Source: Streptomyces mutomycini (GTDB lineage: Bacteria; Actinomycetota; Actinomycetes; Streptomycetales; Streptomycetaceae). From it: 64,000 bases of DNA. Each line of letters begins with the position of its first letter. Position 1 is the stretch's first letter. Below, in pieces: positions 23,727 through 26,945 of the stretch. The notes under the pieces were generated by a model that was not told where the DNA came from, did not search any database, and worked only from the letters and a program-made list of their open reading frames with translations. Where the stretch lies: contig NZ_MAPV01000040.1 of assembly GCF_001700505.1 (NCBI RefSeq), positions 1 to 64,000 on the forward strand, in the 5' to 3' direction. The translations under genes and the position numbers were made by a program.

Positions 23727-24506
23727 TCATCCGCCGGACGTGCGGGCCCGGTTCAGAAGGGCCGCGCGCAGCGCCGGATCCTCCAGGGCTCCCACGCCCC
23801 GTACCGCCACCGCCGCCAGCAGGTCGCGGTCCGCGCCGTGCACCGGCGCCGGCAGCGAGTCCAGCCAGCGCTGCCCGGACGGGGAGGCCCACGGGCTGTA
23901 CGGGTGGTTCTCCACCCGTGCGATGGCCAGACAGCCCAGTGTCAGCACGAGCGGCAGCCCGAACCAGGCGACCACCGGGCCCGCCGCACCCGTCCCCTGA
24001 CCCGGCATCAGCATGGCGATGGCCGCCAGGGCCACCACCAGCACCGCCGCGCCCCGTACCGCGCGTACGGCCGATTCCAGGCTCGTCCGGGTGCCGTGCG
24101 GTACGGCGAGCCCCGCCGCGACGAGGCGGTCGGCGAGGGCGCGCACGGCGTCGGCAGCCGCGGCGGCGGCCCGTAGTGGGGCTATCCGGGACTGCCCTTC
24201 CGGGCCGATCGCGCGGATCACGGTGCGTTCCACCTCGTCCCGTCCCTCCGGGTCGACGACCGTCGCCCAGCCCGTGTGGGCGAGCAGCAGCCGGCGCCGC
24301 AGGTGCATGGAGACGAGCGCCAGATCGGCCACCCGCTGCGGTCCGCCGGCCAGGAACGCGGTCTCGTACAGGTTGAGTTCGGGGGAGGCGGCGGCCTGTG
24401 CGGTGCCGGGCGGCCGCTGGGCCGCACCCGCGGTGACGAGGCACAGCCGGATGCAGGAGACGGCGGCCGCACCCCACGCGACCAGAAGGAGCATGACCCA
24501 GAGCAT
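23727..24506 (-). CDS. TIGR04222 membrane protein without Cys tail
   Basis: A 259-aa protein of the TIGR04222 family. It has an N-terminal transmembrane helix (about 3-24), the conserved LYETAFLAGGPQRVADLALVSMHLRRRL region (about 47-74), RDEVERTVIRAI (about 87-98), and two further helices (about 152-170 and 178-196). The C-terminal part RWLDSLPAPVHGADRDLLAAVAVRGV carries the second conserved block. It stops at RTSGG and lacks the Cys-Gly-Ser tail of its upstream neighbour. Being the third gene of the DUF692 set, it may assist export, anchoring or modification of that neighbour; this is inference. Confidence 0.75.
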   Translation of the reverse strand: MLWVMLLLVAWGAAAVSCIRLCLVTAGAAQRPPGTAQAAASPELNLYETAFLAGGPQRVADLALVSMHLRRRLLLAHTGWATVVDPEGRDEVERTVIRAIGPEGQSRIAPLRAAAAAADAVRALADRLVAAGLAVPHGTRTSLESAVRAVRGAAVLVVALAAIAMLMPGQGTGAAGPVVAWFGLPLVLTLGCLAIARVENHPYSPWASPSGQRWLDSLPAPVHGADRDLLAAVAVRGVGALEDPALRAALLNRARTSGG

Positions 24507-24624
24507 GGCCGAGTTCTATGCGAAACCGGCAGAGAAGCGCCATGCCCTGTTCACCATATGGACGTAACTCGGTCACAGGTGGTCGCCGGTGGCTGGATCC
24601 ATGCGCCTGCCGGCGACGCGCTGC

Positions 24625-25650
24625 TCAGGAGCTGCTGCCGCAACTGGAACCGCCGCCGCAGCTCGATCCGCCGCCGCAACTGGACCCGCTGCTACTGCCG
24701 CAGCTCGATCCGCTGCTGCCGCAGCCCGACCCCGAGCCGCAGGTGGAACCCGTTCCCGAGTCGCCGCCCCCGCCGCTGGAGCCCCCGCAGCTTCCGCCGC
24801 CGGGACTCGCCCCGGCGCACCAGACAACCGGTACGAGCGCGGCGCCGGCGGTGGACGACGCGGAGGACGGGGAGACCGGCCGGCGCCGCCCTGCGGGCCG
24901 TTGCCGGGCGGCAGCCGCCAACTGCCCCTGCAGCTCCGGGTCGGGCAGTGCGCGCAGCCCCAGGGTGGCCACCAGATGGGCCGGGTCGGTCAGATGGGCG
25001 TGGGCCGCACGGTAGTCGTCGGCGGCTCTGCGCCCGGCCTTGGTGAGCCGTGCCCTGGCCGCCGCCGCCGTGACCGGACCGACCACGGCCCCGGTCAGGA
25101 GCGCCGGCAGCACCTTCACGAAAAAGGGGAACGGGGTGTCCGTGTAACCGTCGTGCAGGACGAACTCCGAGATGGTCAGGGCGATGCTGACCGGGAAGCC
25201 CAGCAGACATCCGATGCCCAGGGTGAGCGCCCAGGTCCGGCGCCGCCGGTTCTCCCCAGGTGGGACCAGGAGACCCCGGGCGGCGAGACCGTCGCCGATC
25301 TCCTGCACCGCCGGGTGCCGCATCACGCTCTCCCGCAGGGTGTGCAGGGCGCCGTTCGGCGCCGCTGCCAGCTCCTGGAGCACGGCGCGCTCCACCGCGT
25401 CACGGGCCTCGCCCCGCCGGACCGCGACGATGCCGGGCCCACCGACGGCCAGCCGCCCGTCCGCGTGCATGCGGGTGAGCGCGGTGTCCACCACCCTGGC
25501 GGGGCCGCCGCTGAGGAACGCCTCCTCGGAGAGGTCGTGCACATACGCCGCCGTGCCGCTGCCCCGACGGCCGGAGCGGCGGGTCGCGACGACCAGGAGC
25601 GTCGAGGAGACGGCCACGACGAGAGTCAGCAGAAGAGCGAGGGCGTTCAT
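24625..25650 (-). CDS. TIGR04222 membrane protein with Cys-Gly-Ser tail, probable modification substrate
   Basis: A 341-aa protein. Residues 3-22 form a transmembrane helix. DLSEEAFLSGGPARVVDTALTRMHADGRL is the TIGR04222 core, followed by RDAVERAVLQEL, two more helices (about 138-162 and 175-197) and LGLRALPDPELQGQLAA. The last 58 residues (284-341) are almost only Gly, Ser and Cys, with seven Cys, each followed by Gly; one more Cys sits just before the tail. Such tails look like RiPP-type or metal-binding segments. The adjacent DUF692 enzyme belongs to a family that oxidises Cys residues in peptides, so I infer the tail is its substrate. ATG at 25650 follows GGAAGGTGA and is five bases behind the DUF692 stop. 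The longer frame upstream has no ribosome site. Confidence 0.75.
   Translation of the reverse strand: MNALALLLTLVVAVSSTLLVVATRRSGRRGSGTAAYVHDLSEEAFLSGGPARVVDTALTRMHADGRLAVGGPGIVAVRRGEARDAVERAVLQELAAAPNGALHTLRESVMRHPAVQEIGDGLAARGLLVPPGENRRRRTWALTLGIGCLLGFPVSIALTISEFVLHDGYTDTPFPFFVKVLPALLTGAVVGPVTAAAARARLTKAGRRAADDYRAAHAHLTDPAHLVATLGLRALPDPELQGQLAAAARQRPAGRRRPVSPSSASSTAGAALVPVVWCAGASPGGGSCGGSSGGGGDSGTGSTCGSGSGCGSSGSSCGSSSGSSCGGGSSCGGGSSCGSSS
24628..24801 (-). repeat. Coding low-complexity repeat for the Cys-Gly-Ser tail
   Basis: Irregular tandem units encode S/G-C-G-S/G steps at spacings of 5 to 14 residues. The opposite strand reads as a Pro/Gln/Leu-rich open frame, which is a shadow. The repeats favour slippage, so tail length probably varies between strains. 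Confidence 0.7.
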
Positions 25651-25655
25651 CGCGG

Positions 25656-26945
25656 TCACCTTCCCAGGAGGGCGGTACGGGCGGCGTGGACCAGGCGGGA
25701 GCCGCGCCGGGGCGGACGCGGCGCGGCCCGGTCCTGCCACCAGCGGGTCAGCCTCCGCCTGGCGGCGTCGTCGGCCGGGTGGCCCACGACGAGCAGATGC
25801 TCGGCGAAGCCGAGGGCGTCGCGGCGGTAACCGGCGGACATCGGCTTGTTCTCGGCGTAAGCGAGGAACGCCTTCCGGTAGCCGTCGCCGAGGATCTCGG
25901 GCAGTTCCGGCGCGACCTTGGCGACGACGTCGGCCCGTTTCGCTGCCAGGGCACGGCTCTGCACCTTGAGGCGCCGGGGGTCGAAACCGTCCGGCACCGG
26001 GGTGCCGGCCACCAGGGACGAGAGCAGCGCGGTCTGCGCCACGGCGGTCCGGTCGCGGGCTCCCGCAGGCCGGGTGCCGGGCTCCTCCGGCGGCGCGGGC
26101 CGCTGCCGGCCCTTCTGCGGAGCGGCGGCCGCCGCCAGCGTGGCCCGGATCGAGGTCAGTTCACCTGCCAGTTCTTCGGCCGGAGGGAAGTCGTCGTCGC
26201 GCTCCAGCAGGACCCCCGGCGGGTCGACGCGGGAGCGCAGCTCGCTCAGGACGTCCAGGACGGGGCGTGTCACGGGGTGGGCGTGCGTGTCGTGCCAGAC
26301 GCCGTCCTTCTCGACGCCGCCCGCCACATGGACGTACGCGATGGCCTCCACCGGCAGTTCGTCGAGTGCGGTCGCGGGGTCCTCGCCGCGGTTGACGTGG
26401 TTGGTGTGCAGATTGGCGACGTCGATCAGCAGCCGCACACCGGTGCGCTCGACCAGCTCAGCGAGGAACTGCCCCTCGGTCAGCTCCTCGCCCGGCCAGG
26501 AGATCAGTGCGGCGATGTTCTCCAGGGCAAGCGGGACGGGCAGCGAGTCCTGTGCGATCCGCACGTTCTCGCACAGCACGTCCAGCGCGTCCCACGTCCG
26601 GGGCACCGGCAGCAGATGGCCCGCTTCGAGTGCGGGGGACGAGGTGAGCGGCCCTCCCGCGCGTACGAAGGCGATGTGCTCCGTCACCAGAGGGGTGCCG
26701 AGCAGCTCGGCCCGCGCGGCCAGGCCGGCGAGACGTCCGGGGTCGGGGCGTTCGGCGCCGCCCAGGCCGAGCGAGACCCCGTGCGGGACGACCGTGACCC
26801 CGCGTCCCCGCAGGCGCGCGAGGGACTCGGGGAGATGGTCCGTGCAGAGGTTCTCCGCGACCGCCTCGACCCAGTCGATCCCCGGCAGTGCCTCGACGGC
26901 GTCAGCGATCTCGGGCCGCCATCCGATTCCGATTCCCAGCCTCAT
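25656..26945 (-). CDS. DUF692 multinuclear iron enzyme fused to a DUF2063-like domain
   Basis: A 429-aa protein. Residues 1-275 are the TIM-barrel DUF692 domain of MbnB, TglH and the bufferin HvfB enzymes, which use two or three iron ions to oxidise Cys residues in peptides. Candidate ligands are all present: His55 (PHGVSLGL), His90 (TEHIAF), Glu142 (LENIAAL), Asp175 and His180 ([11 protein letters not shown]), His206, Asp219 with His221 (HDTHAHP) and Glu249 (LLERDDDFP). After a Pro-rich linker (282-300), residues 301-395 ([39 protein letters not shown]) resemble the DUF2063/HvfC-type partner that is normally a separate protein. GGGGAGGGG precedes ATG 26945. It is the first gene of a set with two TIGR04222 genes. 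Confidence 0.85.

Follow-up and report, generated by a model that had tools for sequence, protein, structure and literature searches.

A DUF692 enzyme with a fused partner-like domain beside a Cys-Gly/Ser-tailed TIGR04222 membrane protein in Streptomyces mutomycini: a candidate cysteine-modifying system with an anchored product

On what does a DUF692 enzyme act when the gene beside it encodes a membrane protein with a cysteine-rich tail? This question is raised by a locus in the first 64,000 nucleotides of contig NZ_MAPV01000040.1 of Streptomyces mutomycini (assembly GCF_001700505.1), the stretch of DNA that we analysed and refer to as the window. The locus comprises a gene for a multinuclear nonheme iron-dependent oxidative enzyme (MNIO; DUF692), a gene for a TIGR04222 membrane protein that ends in a Cys-Gly/Ser tail, and a gene for a tail-less TIGR04222 paralogue. 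Known MNIO relatives are iron enzymes that rewrite cysteines. The explanation that best fits the whole locus, with a probability of about 0.55, is a two-part cysteine-modifying system whose product stays anchored to the membrane. The features concerned are as follows (TM, transmembrane segment; ORF, open reading frame); start codons were picked by script or by eye.

26945-25656, minus strand: MNIO (DUF692) gene, 429 aa; PF05114 E 1.9e-76
26130..26945, minus strand: catalytic barrel of the MNIO, residues 1-272; PF05114, fold matches, nine iron ligands
25656..26078, minus strand: helical domain at the MNIO C-terminus, residues about 290-429; AlphaFold2 (AF2) model, separate homologous ORFs elsewhere; presumed built-in partner
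24625..25650, minus strand: tailed TIGR04222 (near_uncomplex) membrane protein, 341 aa; 164.1 bits (curated cut-off 43); predicted TM 4-22, 142-160 and 180-198
24628..24822, minus strand: Cys-Gly/Ser tail with the WC motif before it, residues 277-341; 7 Cys-Gly steps in the 61 residues after WCAG
23727..24506, minus strand: tail-less TIGR04222 paralogue, 259 aa; 164.5 bits (curated cut-off 43); conserved Cys-x-x-(mostly Leu)-Cys at the end of TM1

The gene order, the enzyme family, the ligands, the shared domain, the occurrence of the tail on several carriers and the co-occurrence patterns were computed directly. An earlier reading made from the sequence alone had described the same core, namely a DUF692 enzyme with all expected metal ligands, a TIGR04222 membrane protein five bases downstream and a tail-less paralogue, and all of these were recovered; the gap between the MNIO stop codon and the tailed gene is indeed 5 bases. 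Its count of seven Cys-Gly steps also held, whereas the tail measures 61 residues after WCAG and not 58.

The enzyme and its fused partner-like domain

The MNIO scored 257 bits against PF05114 (curated cut-off 25). Its closest enzyme model in NCBIfam is MNIO_BufB (E 1e-50), with 172.5 bits, which is below the equivalog cut-off of 310. The barrel matched MbnB, TglH and 3bww with VIA Z scores of 22-26, versus 16 for the next rows. Nine iron ligands were located by alignment. These are H55, H90, E142, D175, N178, H206, D219, H221 and E248; the list is that of TglH (PMC10880893), and H55 and H90 were placed through the 3bww alignment only. All nine are invariant across 37 aligned sequences and intact in 78 of 80 MNIOs, the window being included in both sets and one of the two exceptions being a partial match.

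The enzyme extends about 150 residues past the barrel, and this fused part was overlooked in the sequence-only reading. Its AF2 model is helical, with a predicted local distance difference test score of 77-96 (blocks of ten residues) that drops to about 50 over the last 20 residues. A profile built from Streptomyces sequences detected the domain as a separate ORF after the MNIO gene in other actinobacterial families (E 5e-62 to 7e-3). With domain calls accepted down to 15 bits, the 79 loci besides the window divided into 36 with a fused domain, 35 with a separate ORF within 1.5 kb and 8 in which the domain was not found. When the domain was folded alone and the 245 best Foldseek chains were realigned, the first two ranks were taken by TglI (VIA Z 6.6 over 124 residues, root-mean-square deviation 7.7) and MbnC (VIA Z 5.4 over 81 residues, root-mean-square deviation 4.3), Z scores of a size that can reflect a common arrangement. 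Both proteins are MNIO partner subunits in solved complexes.

We read the helical domain as a likely MNIO partner domain. Many TIGR04222-MNIO clusters appear without a partner gene (PMC12452194). Since other actinobacteria encode this domain on its own, downstream of the MNIO, the 'missing' partner seems to be fused to the enzyme here. The available parts of PMC12452194 do not mention a fusion of a partner-like domain to an MNIO.

Three loci (L086, L087 and L088) encode another MNIO type, with 366-370 bits to PF05114, that is accompanied by neither the partner-like domain nor the tail; in all three, the next ORF measures roughly 420-445 aa from stop to stop. In L057 the MNIO looked as if it were joined to an additional protein, a fusion that was rejected because the ORF crosses a stretch of X (assembly gap).

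The tail, its carriers and a proposed mechanism

All seven Cys of the tail precede Gly, and one more Cys belongs to the WC motif, which is invariant in 36 aligned tailed proteins of Streptomyces (window included). A hydrophobic stretch ending in this Trp-Cys (24817-24822, residues 277-278) precedes the tail in these 36 proteins and, by its sequence, could be a recognition element. The 36 tails contain 254 Cys, with Gly after 180 of them (Gly background 48%) and Ser before 189 (Ser background 42%). Our tail rule was matched by 1 of 425 stop-to-stop ORFs of 80 aa or more within the window, and by 2 ORFs in about 318 kb of flanking DNA more than 2.5 kb from an MNIO. The rarity of matches and the biased Cys context rule out chance low complexity. 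A tailed-family gene adjoins the MNIO in 76 of 80 named relatives. Among 77 tailed-family ORFs (window included), 72 have 6-11 Cys in their final 90 residues; four of the others reach a contig end (L040, L043, L052 and L062) and L041 seems to be read out of frame.

Co-occurrence was examined in a class sample of 296 genomes, from which 80 MNIO matches were taken, window included, and 8 weaker rows left out. The TIGR04222 search scored 9 first-look candidates per genome; some tailed genes missed at that step were found by reading the loci. A tail by the strict rule was present within 2.5 kb in 46 of 71 loci with the partner-like domain versus none of 8 without it (Fisher p 5e-4, kinship ignored); the short tails of L114, L118 and L145 fail this rule though CGG repeats are visible. 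TIGR04222 genomes without an MNIO make up 490 of 1372, or a third (PMC12452194). We sampled 22 genomes that had TIGR04222 above the cut-off and no MNIO hit, of which 21 were scorable (G055 was not), and found a Cys tail in one, G067, where the contig ends inside an MNIO-like ORF adjoining the tailed gene. MNIO-positive TIGR04222 genomes had a tail in 37 of 62 cases. Tailed TIGR04222 proteins are thus not common in genomes lacking DUF692; their frequent occurrence there is what the sequence-only reading had named as refuting it, and it passes this test. A further tail call, made in G162 by a looser rule, was discarded, as it has no Gly/Ser repeat and fails the stricter rule.

The tail was also found on ten carriers that do not match the TIGR04222 profile and are encoded beside enzymes of this kind. 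Eight are mini-proteins of 83-119 aa with a single TM (L135, L140, L141, L149, L152, L154, L158 and L160) and the other two (L139 and L147) are soluble, with a length of about 440 aa and no TM. Seven of the ten gave no match in NCBIfam, and neither did the one soluble carrier that was scanned in Pfam. The one-TM carriers are possibly shortened TIGR04222 proteins, and the very small 'adjamnio-V' proteins of PMC12452194 may include them. In L110, an ORF matching the tail rule but not TIGR04222 lies beside TIGR04222 ORFs; it may represent a frame-shifted TIGR04222 tail and was not counted as a carrier.

The presence of the tail on different carriers beside such enzymes points to the tail as the target. 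Together with the rarity of tails in MNIO-negative TIGR04222 genomes, this keeps the tail as substrate of the DUF692 enzyme, as proposed in the sequence-only reading, the best reading, and from these sequence patterns we regard it as quite probable. In the proposed mechanism, the MNIO with its fused partner-like domain would bind the Gly/Ser-rich C-terminal tail of the neighbouring TIGR04222 protein and, acting in the cytoplasm, oxidize several of the cysteines in its Cys-Gly steps. The modified tail would remain part of the protein and lie at the membrane's inner face; the tail-less paralogue would presumably be an assembly or scaffold partner. In captophorins and bufferins, the enzymes form 5-thiooxazole, copper is bound, and induction is often by copper, gold or oxidative stress (PMC13097082). 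Conversion to a thiooxazole takes about 4 Da off a Cys, and bufferins are reported to absorb near 305 nm (PMC12452194). Given this chemistry and MNIO_BufB as the closest model, far under its cut-off, thiooxazole and copper are our leading guess only. The product would most likely be a 5-thiooxazole or a related ring; argued by analogy, this cysteine chemistry stands slightly below an even bet. The tail would probably bind a soft metal, for instance Cu(I), or buffer redox stress, the metal role taken by itself being rather doubtful and likewise an analogy. A broader and tentative proposal is that a portable C-terminal Cys-Gly/Ser tail, placed on varied carriers (three-TM, one-TM or soluble), may be modified by an MNIO that works with a small helical partner, whether fused to it or encoded apart, giving a permanent cytoplasm-facing array of modified cysteines with no released peptide.

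Alternative readings and the side of the membrane

The results that weigh against the two-part system concern the domain, the distribution of the tail in Streptomyces and its topology. The domain folded alone had no significant Foldseek match (E above 1). Against Pfam DUF2063 the fused domain reached E 0.059 and 14.1 bits, under the cut-off of 27.2, and its hhalign comparison with DUF2063 was weak (E 0.008 but probability 4.9%), with a score of 23.7 that none of 150 column shuffles reached (best 20.6). Because DUF2063 was found in none of the 118 genomes of the class that were searched, this comparison drew on seven DUF2063-position proteins taken from plasmid records. No RiPP recognition element (RRE; RiPP, ribosomally synthesized and post-translationally modified peptide) fold was seen in the domain, whose all-helical model lacks beta strands. 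A sequence search of the PDB with the domain gave no significant match.

The tail might also stay unmodified, as a Cys-rich linker or as a metal binder through its thiols, with the MNIO acting elsewhere, for example on the Cys pair of the paralogue or on a distant substrate. Among 27 sampled Streptomyces genomes with this MNIO type (window included), 10 are tailed and 17 have no tail nearby. A single clade with support 100/98 contains 16 of these 17, and on the tree the tail label needs two changes. All 16 keep an MNIO with its ligands. A tailed-family search of the tail-less Streptomyces genomes yielded no full relative (best 71 bits, versus at least 216 in the ten tailed genomes); the named relatives L044, L056 and L069, which are close to the window, also lack the tail. 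The paralogue adjoins the MNIO in 13 of the 16 clade genomes and lies on another contig in G187, where the MNIO is near a contig end and tail loss is less sure; none was seen in G016 and G096. In the paralogue family, the two Cys of Cys-x-x-(mostly Leu)-Cys are kept in 55 of 55 and 54 of 55 sequences (window included). As the enzyme retains its ligands in a clade without the tailed protein, it probably serves something else there; another substrate probably exists in this clade, and the tail is not the sole target everywhere. As an account of the tail itself, however, this reading is unlikely: of 45 non-Streptomyces loci with the partner-like domain, 37 are tailed by the strict rule and 3 have an untailed TIGR04222 ORF, other carriers next to this enzyme type also bear the tail, and tails are rare without an MNIO.

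If the tail is modified, it could still face outward and act there as a metal trap, as the sequence-only reading had supposed, or be cut off. The former agrees with PMC12452194, which predicts a periplasmic tail on models of selected proteins. We estimated topology by a scripted hydropathy and charge estimate, with no trained predictor. Three TMs were found in 35 of the 36 aligned Streptomyces proteins (window included). Over these 35, mean numbers of Lys plus Arg (K+R) are 0.0 before TM1, 3.2 after TM1, 3.6 before TM2, 0.3 between TM2 and TM3, and 4.5 after TM3, the pattern of an N-out/C-in protein with a cytoplasmic tail. A fourth TM before the WC motif was rejected for the 36 Streptomyces proteins, the best 19-residue hydropathy being 0.18-1.24, under the threshold of 1.6. 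The eight single-TM carriers agree with C-in, having 4-7 K+R after the TM versus 0-1 before it, and two carriers have no TM. A wider set of 40 rows of tailed proteins gave 28 C-in, 11 C-out and 1 tie, one G227 gene being counted twice among the C-out rows; 9 of the 11 have an extra hydrophobic stretch after TM3. With N-out/C-in charges the tail would lie on the enzyme's side, and on these patterns a cytoplasmic tail is fairly likely; the surface metal trap is not borne out by charges that place the tail mostly inside, and outside display appears improbable. MNIO reactions in PMC13174530 act on RiPP precursor peptides, so that the modified tail could be released like a usual RiPP. Against this, none of the four neighbours that were scanned encodes a protease (no such search covered the wider window), and only the WC motif is fixed before the tail in the 36 aligned sequences; release is very improbable.

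Neighbouring genes and comparison with known systems

A third Cys occurs in 51 of 55 members of the paralogue family, and the clade that has lost its tail retains the Cys pair too; from its sequence, the site is a possible redox or metal site. The genome of the window contains a third TIGR04222 gene, without a tail (G000 contig C44, 56-787; L084, L184; 47.8 bits). Upstream of the MNIO lies a DUF4142 gene (28040-27273), relatives of which are present in 42 of 80 named loci and in 16 of 26 sampled Streptomyces loci. L125, from the tail-less clade, has one DUF4142 copy upstream and a second between the MNIO and the paralogue. The DUF4142 neighbour was ruled out as an MNIO substrate, since the protein has no Cys. 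A phage link was also considered and dropped, no phage-family match being found at the locus.

Genes for a flavin oxidoreductase and a chlorite-dismutase-family protein converge on the three-gene set and match, by product name, SCO6041 and SCO6042 (PMC5069765). SCO6045, third after SCO6042, is by gene order the presumed MNIO counterpart in S. coelicolor, which may belong to the tail-less group. In the wild type, H2O2 induced SCO6045 3.0-fold alongside cysteine biosynthesis genes, an induction not seen in an hsr mutant (PMC4991794).

Cys-bearing TIGR04222 proteins are often encoded beside MNIO genes, and subsets of them were suggested as MNIO substrates (Antoine et al., 2025; PMC12452194). Both the pairing and its reading as enzyme and substrate are therefore in print already, and the locus studied here belongs to that proposed group. 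For TIGR04222 proteins without a visible partner gene, PMC12452194 does not settle if they are modified, or in what way. The built-in partner-like domain and the other carriers bring such modification within reach of a test, using either a two-gene set in E. coli or minimal substrates some 90 residues long. Our genome comparison strengthens the published guess of a pairing and suggests a tail inside the cell and not on its surface. If true, MNIO chemistry would extend from released peptides to membrane-fixed protein appendages in Streptomyces and other actinobacteria, and the fixed modified tails would possibly serve in metal or oxidative stress.

The locus shares with the TIGR04222-MNIO clusters of PMC12452194 an MNIO beside a TIGR04222 membrane protein whose C-terminal segment is of the Cys/Gly/Ser kind. 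It differs from them in its fused domain and a tail placed inside by charge; in that paper many clusters show no apparent partner gene, and the tail is predicted to be periplasmic. Likeness to bufferins and captophorins (BufB-BufC, HvfB-HvfC) lies in MNIO_BufB as the closest model, the Cys-Gly steps and a Cys-rich substrate; the enzyme, however, is under the BufB cut-off, the candidate substrate is a three-TM membrane protein, and a canonical DUF2063 partner was found in none of the 118 genomes. A Sec signal peptide on a small substrate is a further mark of that group; in the 341-aa protein, the first of the three TMs is followed by Arg. With TglHI and MbnBC the system has in common the barrel fold, the nine ligands and, as a weak match, an added helical part that recalls the N-terminal regions of TglI and MbnC; here this part is fused, no RRE is seen, and several internal tail cysteines take the place of a short peptide. 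A RiPP is a modified peptide released from a leader; the tail here is C-terminal on a membrane protein. The PME-type 2 partners, defined in PMC12452194 as lacking the DUF2063 signature, resemble the fused part in having a helical DUF2063-like domain, in short versions without a full RRE and in being encoded beside an MNIO. Membership of the domain in this type is putative, and it stands apart in being fused to the enzyme, both in Streptomyces and in some of the other actinobacteria.

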